A stretch of 64,000 nt of DNA from Rufibacter immobilis (GTDB lineage: Bacteria; Bacteroidota; Bacteroidia; Cytophagales; Hymenobacteraceae), in NCBI RefSeq assembly GCF_003721565.1, contig NZ_RJJE01000009.1:558001-622000 (forward strand), in the 5' to 3' direction. Positions 6,664 to 56,142 of the stretch are shown piece by piece (the stretch's first letter is position 1; each line of letters starts with the position of its first letter). A model generated the notes under the pieces. It searched no databases. It worked only from the letters and a program-made list of their open reading frames with translations, and was not told the DNA's origin. Made by a program: the position numbers and the translations under genes.

Positions 6664-6712
6664 AAGCACCCTCACGCAGCGTAGTAGTTCTTCTGGTTTC
6701 TTACAGTATAGT

Positions 6713-6752
6713 GCGTTTAGGGGCTCTTTTTCCAAAAACAGCCCCTAAACGC
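6713..6752. repeat. Hairpin repeat copy 1
   Basis: Arms GCGTTTAGGGGCT and AGCCCCTAAACGC are perfectly complementary around CTTTTTCCAAAAAC. It lies between the divergent cysE and ABC exporter genes, where no terminator is expected. Confidence 0.9.
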
Positions 6753-13897: not shown

Positions 13898-14539
13898 TTA
13901 TGCCGTAGGATGCTGCGGCACGAATACCACTTTCTTCGTCTCGAAGAATTCTTCCTGAAAATAGGCATTCAAATCAAACACTTCGTGGACTAAACCAGAT
14001 TCGGCTAATTCTTCGGATAAGTCGCCGCCTTTAAGGTAGTACAGTCCCTGACCGGGCACCGATTCTTTTTTGAAGCTGAACTGAATCCACTGGTAGAAAG
14101 TAGCCAAGCGCGCCACGGCCCGGCTCACAATGAAATCATATTTCTCAGGCACCTGCTCGGCGCGGGTGTGGGAGGCTTTCACGTTGTGCAACCGCAGCTC
14201 CTGCGCAATTTCCTGCACCACATGTATCTTCTTGCCAATAGAATCTACCAGGTGGAACTTCACCTCGGGGAACAGGATGGCCAGGGGCAAACCCGGCAAA
14301 CCGCCGCCCGTGCCCACATCCATGACGCTGGTGCCCGCCGGGAACTGCACCACTTTGGCAATGCCTAATGAATGCAAAAGATGGTTCACCACCAAGTTGT
14401 CCATGTCTTTGCGGGAGATAACGTTGATCTTGGTGTTCCACGCAACATACAGTTCGGCCAGACGCTCAAACTGCCGCTGCTGCTCTGCGGTGAGTTCTGG
14501 AAAATAGTGGGTCAGGATATGGGCAGAAGTTGAATTCAT
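13898..14539 (-). CDS. rsmG: 16S rRNA (guanine527-N7)-methyltransferase
   Basis: 213 residues from ATG 14539. It methylates G527 of 16S rRNA with SAM. The SAM-binding loop DVGTGGGLPGLPLA and the downstream FIVSRAVARL match RsmG/GidB. The open frame continues upstream to 14767, but that part is translated from a hairpin repeat and the GAGTCTCC repeat, and a TATATTTG promoter box (14552-14545) lies inside it, so the ATG at 14539 is chosen. The transcript would have almost no leader. Confidence 0.93.
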   Translation of the reverse strand: MNSTSAHILTHYFPELTAEQQRQFERLAELYVAWNTKINVISRKDMDNLVVNHLLHSLGIAKVVQFPAGTSVMDVGTGGGLPGLPLAILFPEVKFHLVDSIGKKIHVVQEIAQELRLHNVKASHTRAEQVPEKYDFIVSRAVARLATFYQWIQFSFKKESVPGQGLYYLKGGDLSEELAESGLVHEVFDLNAYFQEEFFETKKVVFVPQHPTA

Positions 14540-14544
14540 AGGCT

Positions 14545-14552
14545 CAAATATA
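14545..14552 (-). promoter_or_regulatory. Promoter -7 box of rsmG
   Basis: Minus-strand TATATTTG five bases upstream of the rsmG ATG, implying a leaderless or nearly leaderless transcript and supporting the short start. Confidence 0.55.
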
Positions 14553-14617
14553 CGACTGAAAGAGTTCTGAGTGGTGGGTTCTGCCTCCTGAGTTGCAAAC
14601 CAATGGCCCCCAACTTT

Positions 14618-14657
14618 ACGTTTAGGGGATCTTTTTGGAAAAAGAGCCCCTAAACGT
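14618..14657. repeat. Hairpin repeat copy 5
   Basis: Arms ACGTTTAGGGG / CCCCTAAACGT around ATCTTTTTGGAAAAAGAG. With copy 6 it brackets the GAGTCTCC-type repeat at 14662-14780. Confidence 0.88.
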
Positions 14658-14661
14658 AACA

Positions 14662-14780
14662 GCGTCGCTGCACCCACGTCTCTGGCAAACGTCGTTTCGC
14701 TGCGCGGCAGCGAGGGTAGCCTGGAGACTCCCCCCTCATCCAAAGGCACGAGTCTGGAGACTCGCACCAGCAGCCTTATT
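14662..14780. repeat. GAGTCTCC-type dispersed repeat, locus A
   Basis: Contains TCGCTGC...GCAGCGAGGGTAG, GGAGACTC, AAAGGCACGAGT and CTGGAGACTCG in the same order as the second half of locus B (35414-35586). Together with hairpin copies 5 and 6 it fills the 632 bases without a gene between rsmG and the sigma factor. Nothing coding is convincing here. Confidence 0.75.
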
Positions 14781-15057
14781 TGAGCGGTTTACAACTATGG
14801 AATGTCAGCTATATTAAATTTCAAACTAGAAAAGCCCTTACTAAACGCACCTATTCCAGTCTTTCCCTAGAGCGCCTCGCTTGTGGCCAAGTAAGAAAGA
14901 AACTAAACGCCAACTGCACTAGCCTGGCCGCAAGGGCAGTGCGAGAGGGGAAGACGGGGCCCCGCAGCCGTGAGCGCTTACCAGAAAAGATGAAACAACA
15001 CAGCCCATAAAGCCACAGACAAGCCGCAAACCCAAGGCATCAGCCAGATACAATCCT

Positions 15058-15095
15058 GTTTAGGGGCTCTTTTTCCCAAAACGCCCCCTAAACGC
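15058..15095. repeat. Hairpin repeat copy 6
   Basis: Arms GTTTAGGGGC / GCCCCCTAAAC around TCTTTTTCCCAAAAC, downstream of the sigma factor gene. Confidence 0.88.
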
Positions 15096-15100
15096 AAAAG

Positions 15101-15136
15101 CAGCAAAAAACAGAAAGCAGCCCCTAAAGGCTGCTT
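15101..15136 (-). terminator. Terminator of the glycosyltransferase/sigma operon
   Basis: Stem AAGCAGCC / GGCTGCTT (15115-15122, 15129-15136), followed on the minus strand by TCTGTTTTTT, 35 bases after the sigma factor stop. Confidence 0.75.
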
Positions 15137-15171
15137 CCCATCAACGCTAAAATACTATCTTAAAAAACCCC

Positions 15172-15780
15172 TTAGATGAGGTGCTTCTTGTTCTTCACCA
15201 TGTCATACAGCAACTCGCGGGCGCGGTGCAGCTGGGCTTTCACGGTACCCAGGGGAGCGCTCAGCTCAGTGGCAATCTCCTCGTAAGAAAGCTCGTCAAA
15301 GTAACGCAGCGTTACCAGGCGCTGGTACTTGTCTGGCAGCTTGCTCACAATGTACTGCATGATCTCAATCTTCTGGTTCTTGATGGCAGACTCCTGCGGG
15401 TTCAGGTTGTTGTCTTTGAAATCAATGGTGATCTCATCGCCGTTGTCGATCTTGATGGCAGAGTCAATGCTCATGGTCTTGATCTTGTTCTTCCGGATGA
15501 AGTCAATGCAGTTGTTGGTGGCAATTCTAAAGAGCCAGGTACTGAACGCATACTCCGGGTTGAACTTGTGCAGGTTCCGGAACGCTTTGGCGAAGGCTTC
15601 AATGGTGAGGTCCTCGGCATCGTCGGCGTTGCGCACCATCTTGAGGACCACGTGGTAAACCGGCTTTTTGTAGATCTGCATCAATTCGGCGTAGGCTTTC
15701 TCATCGCCATCTTCCACCGCAGACTGGATCAGTTTAAAATCGTGTTTCGCTTTCGCGGAGAATTGCTTGTTTACTTCCAT
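15172..15780 (-). CDS. ECF-type RNA polymerase sigma factor
   Basis: 202 residues. Region 2 (DAEDLTIEAFAKAFRNL and FSTWLFRIATNNCIDFIRKN, ~52-100) and region 4 (LPDKYQRLVTLRYFDELSYE, then the HTH GTVKAQLHRARELL, ~150-195) define a sigma-70 group 4 factor. Its start overlaps the end of the glycosyltransferase gene by 10 bases, so the two are co-transcribed and probably translationally coupled. No anti-sigma gene follows; a hairpin terminator ends the unit. The acidic linker (IDNGDEITIDFKDNNLNPQE) is as in many Cytophagales sigma factors. Its regulon is unknown. Confidence 0.92.
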   Translation of the reverse strand: MEVNKQFSAKAKHDFKLIQSAVEDGDEKAYAELMQIYKKPVYHVVLKMVRNADDAEDLTIEAFAKAFRNLHKFNPEYAFSTWLFRIATNNCIDFIRKNKIKTMSIDSAIKIDNGDEITIDFKDNNLNPQESAIKNQKIEIMQYIVSKLPDKYQRLVTLRYFDELSYEEIATELSAPLGTVKAQLHRARELLYDMVKNKKHLI

Positions 15781-19394: not shown

Positions 19395-19467
19395 GGGTTG
19401 ATTGTTGGTTGCTGCTTGTCTTTATCGTGCTTTCACCAGCGCAATTCTCCAGGCTTAAGCATTAGTT

Positions 19468-19505
19468 GCGTTTAGGGGCTCTTTTTGCCAAAACGGCTCC
19501 AAAAC
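19468..19505. repeat. Hairpin repeat copy 7
   Basis: Left arm GCGTTTAGGGGCT, decayed right arm CGGCTCCAAAAC. It forms a pair with copy 8 around a short spacer. Confidence 0.8.
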
Positions 19506-19601
19506 AGAAAGATGCAGATCCTTGATTCCGCTGGCGCCGAAGGGAAAGCCACGAGAGTAGCTTCCGCTCCGCAAGAGACTGCCACACACAAATTTAAATG
19601 T

Positions 19602-19639
19602 GCGTTTAGGGGCTGTTTTCAGAAAAACGGCCTCTAAAC
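19602..19639. repeat. Hairpin repeat copy 8
   Basis: Arms GCGTTTAGGGGCTG / CGGCCTCTAAAC around TTTTCAGAAAAA. The ~96-base spacer between copies 7 and 8 holds CTGGCGCCGAAGGG and GAGACTGCC, a possible relic of the GAGTCTCC repeat. Confidence 0.85.
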
Positions 19640-19698
19640 AGAAACCAAACGTCGGCCCCGCCGAGATTCTCAATTCTTAATTCCAAATTCTCAATTCA

Positions 19699-34208: not shown

Positions 34209-35348
34209 TTGCAACACGCCGTGTCTATCTCCCCTAAAGTTACGCCCATCTACCAGACCTCGGTTTTCACCTTTGAGGACCTGAACGCCCTGGAAGCCTA
34301 TTTTGAGCAGCCTGGCCAGAGTTATCTGTACAGCCGCAACGGCAACCCCAACACCGATGAATTAGCCCAGGAAGTAAACCAACTGGAGAAAGGCAACGGC
34401 GCAGTGGCCACTTCCTCAGGCATGTCCGCGATTCTGACGGCGGTGCTGGTCTACTGCCAGGCCGGCGACCATGTGCTGTGTGCCGAGGAAATTTACGGGG
34501 GATCGGCGGCGCTTCTGACCCAGGAACTCACCCGCATGGGCATCCAAATCACCTTCGTACCCATGGCCGAGATGTATGGCCTTGGCTCCTACGTACAGCC
34601 CAACACCAAACTGATCCTGGCCGAAACCATCAGCAACCCCATGATGACAGTACTGGACTTAGCCAAAGTGGCCCAGGCGTGCCAGGTGCAGGGCATCAAA
34701 CTGGTGGTAGACAATACCTTCGCCTCACCGGTCATTACCAAACCATTGCAGTTGGGGGCAGATCTGGTGATCCACAGCGTGACCAAGTACCTGTCTGGGC
34801 ACAGTGATGTCACGGCGGGGGTAGTCATTGCCAAAGACACAGCAGATGCCCAACGGGCCAAACAGATTGTAGTGGCCTGGGGGCTCACCTTAAGCCCTTT
34901 TGAGAGCTGGCTGGCTTCCCGAGGCTTGAAAACCCTGAAACTGCGCATAAAGCAGCACTCTGAGAATGCCCTCGCGTTGGCTACCTACCTGAAACAGCAC
35001 CCCAAGGTGAGTGAAGTGTTCTACCCCGGCTTACCAGATCATCCGCAGCACGCGCTGGCGGCCGCGCAAGGCCATGGGTTGTTTGGGGGAATGCTCTCTT
35101 TCAGGTTGGCAGACGAGGCGGAAACCGTGAACCGCTTCATGCGCGGCTTAACCCACATGCCGTTCGCGCCGTCTTTGGCGGGCGTGGTTTCCTCTATCTC
35201 CTACCCTTTGGGCACCTCACACCGGGCGCTTACCCCAGAGCAACGCGAAAAGCTAGGCATCACGGTAGGTCTGATCAGACTGTCGGTGGGCATTGAAGAC
35301 GCCGATGAGTTGATCACGGACTTAGACAAGGCACTAGCCGCGATTTAA
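34209..35348 (+). CDS. Trans-sulfuration PLP enzyme (cystathionine synthase/lyase type)
   Basis: 379 residues, probable TTG start at 34209. It belongs to the Cys/Met metabolism PLP family: YSRNGNP (41-47), ATSSGMSAI, DNTFASPVITKPL and the PLP lysine Lys193 in HSVTKYLSGHSD. SGHSD after the lysine is common in cystathionine gamma-synthases/lyases. The family cannot be split reliably by eye into synthase, gamma-lyase or methionine gamma-lyase. The window also holds metZ and metX, so this one may run the cystathionine route. Confidence 0.85.
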   Translation: MQHAVSISPKVTPIYQTSVFTFEDLNALEAYFEQPGQSYLYSRNGNPNTDELAQEVNQLEKGNGAVATSSGMSAILTAVLVYCQAGDHVLCAEEIYGGSAALLTQELTRMGIQITFVPMAEMYGLGSYVQPNTKLILAETISNPMMTVLDLAKVAQACQVQGIKLVVDNTFASPVITKPLQLGADLVIHSVTKYLSGHSDVTAGVVIAKDTADAQRAKQIVVAWGLTLSPFESWLASRGLKTLKLRIKQHSENALALATYLKQHPKVSEVFYPGLPDHPQHALAAAQGHGLFGGMLSFRLADEAETVNRFMRGLTHMPFAPSLAGVVSSISYPLGTSHRALTPEQREKLGITVGLIRLSVGIEDADELITDLDKALAAI

Positions 35349-35356
35349 TCTTTTCT

Positions 35357-35392
35357 GTTTAGCGGCTGTTTTTTCAAAAACAGCCGCTAAAC
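35357..35392. repeat. Hairpin repeat copy 15
   Basis: Arms GTTTAGCGGCTG / CAGCCGCTAAAC are perfect around TTTTTTCAAAAA, eight bases after the trans-sulfuration gene stop. Confidence 0.9.
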
Positions 35393-35413
35393 AATACGTT
35401 TTCTTATCCCCAG

Positions 35414-35586
35414 CTGGCGCGCGACTTCCGTCTCGTGACCAGGGATGAAGCGAGTCTCCAGACACGCCGTGAACCAAGAACCGGAAATGCTGGGGATTCC
35501 GCCATACGCCGTGTCGCTGCAACGCAGCGAGGGTAGTCAGGAGACTACCCGCCACCGAAAGGCACGAGTTGCAAACCCGTGCCAGC
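35414..35586. repeat. GAGTCTCC-type dispersed repeat, locus B (longest)
   Basis: The first half (TGGCGCG-GACTT--GTCTCGTGAC, GGATGAAGCGAGTCTCCAGA) matches locus C at 43247-43385; the second half (TCGCTGC-ACGCAGCGAGGGTAG, AAAGGCACGAGT) matches locus A at 14662-14780. It lies between hairpin copies 15 and 16 and, with them, fills the gap before pth. Confidence 0.78.
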
Positions 35587-35674
35587 GTTTGGCCAGCTTT
35601 AGAGCGGTAAGCGAGCGAACAAGTGCGGACGGATGGCTCAAAGCAGAGGAACGTGTCTGCACGCAACCTCTTCT

Positions 35675-35712
35675 ATTTTCAGCCTGTTTTCAGAAAAATA
35701 GCCTCTAAACGC
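35675..35712. repeat. Hairpin repeat copy 16
   Basis: TATTTTCAGCCTGTTTTC then AGAAAAATAGCCTCTAAACG; the left arm is decayed. It ends 10 bases before the pth promoter box. Confidence 0.75.
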
Positions 35713-43147: not shown

Positions 43148-43185
43148 CAGAAAATGCAGGCAACCTTTTCTTCTGTGAACACCCA

Positions 43186-43223
43186 GCGTTTAGCGGCTCT
43201 TTTTCTGAAAACAAGGCTAAAAC
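43186..43223. repeat. Hairpin repeat copy 21
   Basis: Left arm GCGTTTAGCGGCT, decayed right arm AAGGCTAAAAC. It pairs with copy 22 around repeat locus C. Confidence 0.8.
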
Positions 43224-43246
43224 ACCTACACCTTTCTTCACTTTCC

Positions 43247-43385
43247 TGGCGCGAGACTTTTGTCTCGTGACAAAGGATGAAGCGAGTCTCCAGACTCGCC
43301 GGGAACCATGAGCCGAGCATGTACGGAAATGGAGTCTGGAGACTCCACACACCTATCGGCACGAGTCTGGAGACTCGCGCCGGGG
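43247..43385. repeat. GAGTCTCC-type dispersed repeat, locus C
   Basis: Contains TGGCGCGAGACTTTTGTCTC, GCGAGTCTCCAGACTCGC, TGGAGTCTGGAGACTCCA and CACGAGTCTGGAGACTCGCG: nested palindromes on a GAGTCTCCAGACTC core. It matches the first half of locus B and, with copies 21 and 22, fills the 337 bases between metG and the peroxidase gene. Confidence 0.8.
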
Positions 43386-43400
43386 CAAAAGTTGGGTTCC

Positions 43401-43438
43401 AGTTTAAGCCTGTTTTAAGAAAAAGAGCCCCTAAACGC
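43401..43438. repeat. Hairpin repeat copy 22
   Basis: Decayed left arm AGTTTAAGCCTG, intact right arm AGAGCCCCTAAACGC, 20 bases before the peroxidase stop. Confidence 0.82.
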
Positions 43439-56070: not shown

Positions 56071-56102
56071 GTTACCCTAAGGCTACCTATCTGCGCCAGA
56101 AA

Positions 56103-56142
56103 GCGTTTAGGGGCTCTTTTTCTAAAAACAGCCCCTAAACGC
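56103..56142. repeat. Hairpin repeat copy 27 (archetype)
   Basis: Arms GCGTTTAGGGGCT / AGCCCCTAAACGC are perfect around CTTTTTCTAAAAAC; one base different from copy 1. Confidence 0.92.

Follow-up and report, generated by a model that had tools for sequence, protein, structure and literature searches.

Enterobacterial REP/BIME and Pseudomonas REPIN sequences are extragenic elements made of inverted pairs of palindromes, present in many copies, with the foot GT[AG]G and a cognate REP-associated tyrosine transposase (RAYT). RAYTs and REP palindromes of Bacteroidetes are treated in the literature as well (PMC6006769, PMC3733652). The part of PMC6006769 that deals with TnpA-REP subclass 2.6 describes mostly Bacteroidetes genes with the motifs NH[LIV]H, WQ, and YIH[QN]NP, flanked by structures that are copied elsewhere in the genome; these structures were called atypical and were found by manual inspection. 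Mosaic intergenic elements of Neisseria, as outlined in a section of PMC3898611, include dRS3, a 20-bp repeat that is a target of prophage integration.

The window, a stretch of 64,000 nucleotides (G000:C1:558001-622000), belongs to a 4.77-Mb draft genome in 17 contigs from a host of the Rufibacter group of Bacteroidota, and the comparison set consisted of 16 genomes of the genus, G000 included. At three loci (A, B, and C) two hairpins stand around a GAGTCTCC repeat, and a fourth pair of hairpins was also considered. Module boundaries of the inner elements at loci A, B, and C were set by eye. The features are as follows.

14617–14656, unstranded: left hairpin of locus A (weight-matrix score 53)
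14691–14770, plus strand: inner half of locus A, module R2, GCAGCGAGGGTAG ... GGCAC-GAGTCTGGAGACTC-GCACCAG (by eye)
14838–15046, plus strand: repeat family X of locus A, structured
15055–15094, unstranded: right hairpin of locus A (score 52)
19467–19506, unstranded: left hairpin of the fourth pair (score 53)
19601–19640, unstranded: right hairpin of the fourth pair (weight matrix), with a weak relic at most between the two hairpins
35354–35393, unstranded: left hairpin of locus B, directly 3' of the stop of a PLP-enzyme-like gene (frame ends at 35348)
35414–35585, plus strand: inner element of locus B, L1 (CTGGCGC..GATGAAGC-GAGTCTCC..) + R2 (by eye)
35672–35711, unstranded: right hairpin of locus B, about 20 bp upstream of the ATG of the pth frame
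43185–43224, unstranded: left hairpin of locus C (score 40)
43246–43383, plus strand: inner element of locus C, L1 + R1 (boundaries by eye)
43398–43437, unstranded: right hairpin of locus C (score 41)

The hairpins had the form GTTTAGGGGC..TTTTT-AAAAA..GCCCCTAAAC and a length of 36–40 bp. They were called with a weight matrix trained on 32 of the window's own hairpins, at score thresholds of 9 and 12, and every cross-genus site was rescored at both. The matrix carries the hairpin pairs shifted by two columns, and trust in its calls rests on the near-zero background, namely, over 279,720 bases of reversed sequence, 1 match at threshold 9 and 0 at threshold 12, versus 146 and 144. Within the window, 34 hairpins were called, against none in the reversed window and a mean of 0.02 (maximum 1) in 50 dinucleotide shuffles, while the inner palindrome (at most one mismatch) occurred five times versus zero in each of 50 shuffles. 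The two hairpins around the GAGTCTCC repeat at loci A, B, and C, which an earlier note had described with positions correct to within a few bases, are real and far above chance. The ordered set of blocks that it ascribed to all three loci was confirmed in part: GCAGCGAGGGTAG was present in A and B but absent from C (best match with 5 mismatches), GCGAGTCTCCAGACTC occurred in B with 1 mismatch but in A on the minus strand, within the right-end palindrome, and AAAGGCACGAGT had 2 mismatches in C. No left module was seen at locus A, which holds an additional 200-bp repeat (X, 14838-15046) that had not been listed. The relic reported for the fourth pair was weak, with 6, 3, and 2 mismatches to the three blocks; in the orthologous gap, G032 and G045 hold the inner GAGTCTCC repeat, and palindrome matches were present in five relatives.

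Genome-wide, GAGTCTCCAGACTC (at most one mismatch) was found 95 times, versus 0 for the backwards-read pattern, in 44 clusters; 43 intergenic regions were analysed. As read through the clusters, the typical inner repeat was made of two double palindromes in inverted orientation and had the ends CTGGCGCGAG and CTCGCGCCAG, each half comprising two palindromes and the full element extending over about 140–170 bp in the window; a few of the 44 clusters were partial or doubtful as inner elements. The recurring order was CTGGCGC-palindrome-GTGnC-nnn-GGATGnnGC-palindrome, followed by the inverted counterpart with the CTCGCGCCAG end. Modules differed in the second palindrome, that is, GCGAG..CTCGC in L1, GGAG..CTCC in R1, and GGTAG..CTACC after GCAGCGA in R2; locus C was composed of L1+R1, locus B of L1+R2, and locus A of R2 alone plus X. 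A heuristic classification of the 44 clusters gave 17 with L1+R1 without X, four with L1+R2 without X, and nine in all with R2 and X, these classes being rough, with locus A labelled L1/R1, neither of which was seen there by eye, and two clusters unclassed. Since, by these heuristic classes, other clusters of the genome share the layouts of A and of C, the proposal that both are deletion derivatives of B is unsupported. As single-stranded DNA, the locus C element (43245-43386) had a folding energy of -37.9 kcal/mol (z -5.4), and none of 200 shuffles was as low. Exact 15-mers of the inner repeat numbered from 0 to 97 across the 16 genomes. The inner element shares with REP/BIME and REPIN the extragenic inverted palindrome pairs, the many copies, and a cognate RAYT (in relatives), but its outer foot, by eye, is GGCAC instead of GT[AG]G (GGTAG being found at the inner palindrome of R2), and each half carries two palindromes.

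Y1_Tnp matches were found in 15 of the 16 genomes. In a tree of 38 of these, from which L109, L111, and five loci without a parsed frame were left out, five RAYTs formed a clade (UFBoot/SH-aLRT 100/99), namely L092 of G032 (Rufibacter psychrotolerans SYSU D00308), L104 of G045 (Sabulibacter ruber SYSU D00434), L106 of G060 (Rufibacter ruber CCM 8646), L108 of G022, and L110 of G012. All five had GAGTCTCC-type palindromes within 450 bp upstream; downstream palindromes were clear in four of the five (degenerate in L092), those of L108 being partial only. Other clades possessed their own cores in the same frame, likewise within 450 bp: GGAAGTT/CACTTCC in the second clade (4/4), GAGCTTGCAGCTC or GAGCCTCCGGCTC types in the third (5/5), and AAGCGTCCGCTT in the fourth (2/2). 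One TGGCGC..GTGnC frame is common to four core types, clade by clade; no palindrome in that frame was found on scanning the remaining 22 RAYTs.

The NCBIfam model NF047646 (REP-associated tyrosine transposase) was matched with 103 bits against a cut-off of 80, and PF01797 by L092 with 27 against a cut-off of 23. Residues H60, H62, and Y145 were invariant across four aligned clade proteins, the alignment excluding L104, whose gene has an in-frame stop. The motifs of L092 were NHLH, WQ, and YLHQNP (I to L), and exceptions in the clade were NHHH in L110 and YLHHNP in L108. With motifs of the NHxH, WQ, and Y-x-H-[QN]-NP types, about 180 aa, a Bacteroidota host, and a RAYT gene flanked by secondary structures that have copies elsewhere in the genome, the clade resembles subclass 2.6 as characterized in the relevant part of PMC6006769, and its members would fit that subclass by motifs. 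Unlike in that part of the description, the palindromes here are split by clade, and a population without transposase is described.

A search of this genome with the L092 protein revealed no RAYT of the GAGTCTCC clade; it yielded one RAYT of another clade and one broken RAYT. The broken RAYT (L138, G000:C10:128063-128338) had GAGCTTGCAGCTC-type palindromes on both sides, and the genome's one intact-looking RAYT had other repeats upstream (GGATTTATCAATCC, TTTACTAATCC; L067 2200-2450), perhaps its own palindromes. Among the genomes of the genus, the number of inner repeats and the presence of the transposase had no simple relation: G063, G037, and G000 were rich in the repeat without the clade transposase, and G012 had four exact 15-mers with it.

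Because one RAYT clade is flanked by GAGTCTCC palindromes and the other clades by their own cores, the preferred reading of the inner repeat is a non-autonomous element of REP/BIME type that belongs to a subclass-2.6-like RAYT, and the earlier suggestion of a non-autonomous, BIME-like multicopy element is supported, with a plausible transposase in relatives. Its palindromes would fold into hairpins in single-stranded DNA; by analogy with the RAYT family, an HUH transposase would bind these hairpins and cut at the foot, after which the element would be copied into intergenic DNA. This resolves which palindromes go with a branch of REP transposases that has been little described, several RAYT clades of one genus having their own cores in a common frame; this arrangement makes the recognition of substrate by transposase testable by core swaps, and a large element population (44 clusters) is present in a genome in which the search revealed no cognate transposase.

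It appears quite likely that the composite consists of two independent repeat families side by side, the RAYT-type REP/BIME inner element and the gene-border hairpins. The two are clearly associated. With 43 inner-repeat regions taken for the 44 clusters, hairpins were present on both sides in 26, on one side in 15, and on neither in two, so that the earlier reading survives the refutation that it had itself proposed, the inner repeat not occurring equally often without hairpins, and hairpin pairs were in excess over length-matched gaps. Among gaps of 300–900 bp, at least two hairpins were present in 27 of 36 with the inner repeat versus four of 22 without it (Fisher p 3e-5), an excess that is not fully explained. 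These counts would agree with the composite being a single mobile unit that ends in the hairpins, as the earlier note had suggested, and so would sites B and D, where the repeat-free genomes mostly have one hairpin or none. At site B (no row for G017, G022, and G048), two hairpins were present in all four clearly repeat-bearing genomes, and the nine other genomes had none (five), one (two), two (G060), or three (G057), the last with one palindrome match; the gaps of G057 and G060 were longer. At site D, the inner repeat was present in 9 of 14 genomes, eight of these nine having two hairpins and G045 one, whereas all five repeat-free genomes had one (G027 at threshold 9 only) and none had two. 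At B and D the number of hairpins can thus vary together with the insert.

Site E, however, retained both hairpins in eight of the nine repeat-free genomes at threshold 9 and in six at threshold 12; other sequence lay between them in G051, G054, and G037, and five of the gaps were 163–201 bp long. Its repeat-bearing genomes had two hairpins in five of seven (four of seven at threshold 12), with one in G045 and in G060, the locus of the latter being short and read as clipped by a contig end. In the gap of the fourth pair, genomes with palindrome matches had one hairpin in G012, G032, and G045 (three of five) and two in G057 and G060; those without matches had two in G000, one in five genomes, and none in G051. 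The stricter threshold weakens the evidence from site E, and the fourth pair strengthens the case for independence. Ends and insert, expected to be jointly absent from the empty sites of a composite transposon, were not so at E, with B and D partly showing the opposite. Since most gaps at E without the repeat keep two hairpins and repeats in the fourth gap occur with one in three of five genomes, the hairpins are unlikely to be ends of the inner repeat.

Further observations are also at variance with a single unit. Hairpins far outnumber the inner repeats, and were confined to one side or missing in 15 and two of the 43 regions, respectively. The clade RAYT genes are flanked by the inner palindromes, and in the stretch shown no hairpin was seen to the left of the upstream element at L106 and L108. 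The distance from hairpin to repeat varied widely: 46 spacers gave 113 alignments, 65 of which join X-bearing loci, among them all 40 best, and of the other 48, 25 were viewed, several of them arising by eye from a further repeat, GACGCTCGCAGGTCCTCCGGACG, so that the spacer similarities viewed stem from other repeats in between. A single unit bounded by hairpins is therefore regarded as highly improbable. A further repeat, about GACGCTCGCAGGTCCTCCGGACGCTACGAGGTC, was noted between hairpin and inner repeat in the spacers of L034, L045, L047, L049, and L063.

At site A (no row for G045), two hairpins were present in 14 of 15 genomes, although two or more palindrome matches were found in G000 and G022 only, which favours independence; the loose matches of G017 and G054, one in each, fell, by eye, in GAGTTCT-like simple repeats. 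On the other side, G017, which has the shortest gap, had one hairpin, and in most of the repeat-free genomes the stretch from one hairpin to the other was seen by eye to contain other inserts. In several relatives (L161-L169), an inverted repeat around CAAGTTTGAGCGnAGCGGTAACTTG was observed between the same two hairpins.

An alternative role for the hairpin is that of a target, in which the element, as a circle with a hairpin, integrates at a hairpin centre and leaves two hybrid hairpins, in a manner similar to phage attachment. At a few loci, among them locus C and L038, each outer arm is more similar to the opposite outer arm than to its own partner, cross-matching exceeded within-matching in 11 of 26 repeat-flanking pairs versus 21 of 77 others, and the model would account for those empty sites at B and D that have one hairpin. 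Against this, no excess of cross-pairing was detected in 119 same-gap pairs compared with 191 gene-separated pairs (p 0.56 and 0.92), the 26 repeat-flanking pairs gave p 0.12 and 0.26, this genome alone gave p 0.03 by one measure and 0.35 by the other, and repeat-free gaps at E have two hairpins. This hybrid-hairpin model, prompted by locus C and by site D of G048, gave no robust signal in two tests, and we consider it most improbable. No target-site duplications or exact junctions were readable, the relatives being too diverged.

Loss of the interior is another route to fewer hairpins in repeat-free gaps, since recombination between two hairpins would remove the interior and leave one of them. 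The near-palindromic hairpins would act as direct repeats, and the presence of the repeat in 9 of 14 genomes at site D fits an old insertion with later losses, but the repeat-free gaps at E keep both hairpins; as an account of the association, deletion is rather unlikely, though it can coexist with two independent families and may be an additional cause. Under the preferred reading of two independent families, the residual association would best be put down to a tolerance for insertion in the space from one gene border to the next: the composite would arise when an element lands in an intergenic gap, with the border hairpin of one gene on either side, and harms neither gene, long gaps tending to retain one hairpin per gene and short gaps often sharing one.

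The hairpins are a repeat family distinct from the inner repeat. Extrapolation from 34 per 64 kb gives about 2,500 per genome, and a first look at the whole genome, with a covariance model whose pairs are likewise shifted by two columns, returned 6398 candidates, both strands counted, and 150 of these were scored. The 263,036 bases drawn from the surroundings of inner repeats, the window, and one RAYT locus contained 149 hairpins, with 138 counted in intergenic gaps. With the pairing corrected, changes on both sides of a pair were observed in 10 of 18 pairs among 32 window hairpins; the covariation score was 0.145 versus 0.113 in shuffles and was reached by one of 500, and the proportion of paired cells, 78.6%, was reached by 40 of 500. 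Predicted RNA energies were modest, from -27.1 to -0.1 kcal/mol with a median of -11.8.

With gene borders from a simple gene finder that missed some genes, hairpins were present in 14 of the 15 convergent gaps lacking the inner repeat, in 30 of the 59 tandem ones, and in 10 of the 22 divergent ones. Distances to the genes were alike for single and multiple hairpins: by medians computed by hand, single hairpins in tandem gaps (n = 19) lay 27 bp past the stop and 75 bp ahead of the start, and in tandem gaps with at least two hairpins (n = 25) the first lay 25 bp past the stop and the last 77 bp ahead of the start. Around inner repeats (66 sides), the 10th to 90th percentiles of the distance were 4–261 bp between hairpin and gene versus 13–282 bp between hairpin and repeat; these spreads are about equal, and anchoring to genes is thus not proved. 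Four gene pairs lacked any hairpin in 15/15, 12/12, 12/12, and 14/14 genomes and one had a single hairpin in 9/9, whereas hairpin number was variable in three others (0–2, 0–1, and 1–3). For hairpins like the 34 of the window (for example 6712-6751 and 56102-56141), presence or absence per gene pair was often, not always, constant over the genus. A fixed polarity of the hairpins in pairs was dropped, both directions occurring by eye.

At gathering scores, Rfam found only tRNA in the window; at E up to 1, region 14500-15200 had four weak sub-gathering matches (E 0.13–0.91), three of them on the left hairpin of locus A. A limited search revealed no literature on Rufibacter intergenic repeats, which does not establish that the hairpins are absent from print. 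In being short inverted repeats with hundreds of copies, situated beside larger repeats in intergenic arrays, they are similar to Neisserial dRS3/RS as presented in the pertinent section of PMC3898611, but are 36–40 bp long instead of the 20 bp of dRS3. The composite is mostly ordinary; the very abundant hairpins form the less explained part, occur genus-wide, often at the same gene pairs, and, if functional, would be relevant to the boundaries of transcripts in Bacteroidota. As a tentative suggestion, they may represent an undescribed genus-wide gene-border class of about 2,500 per genome, kept by selection on base pairing and marking neutral intergenic sockets, where unrelated RAYT-mobilised families and X accumulate and hairpin number fits gap size.

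Fifteen of the 16 genomes of the genus have matches to repeat X, a sequence of about 200 bp with 40 copies or more in this genome. No Rfam match overlapped X at E up to 1 in 14500-15200, no fixed orientation relative to genes was found, and no published description was noted in a limited search, by which its absence from print is not established. In an alignment of 37 rows, 844 of the 884 cells of a long stem were paired, at least two Watson-Crick types were seen in 11 of 24 pairs (a count without shuffle control), and the GGGGCCCCGCGGCCGTGAGCGC tail was almost invariant; X is a candidate structured RNA or mobile unit. It adjoins 16 of the 44 inner-repeat clusters, and L239-L260 provide further examples.
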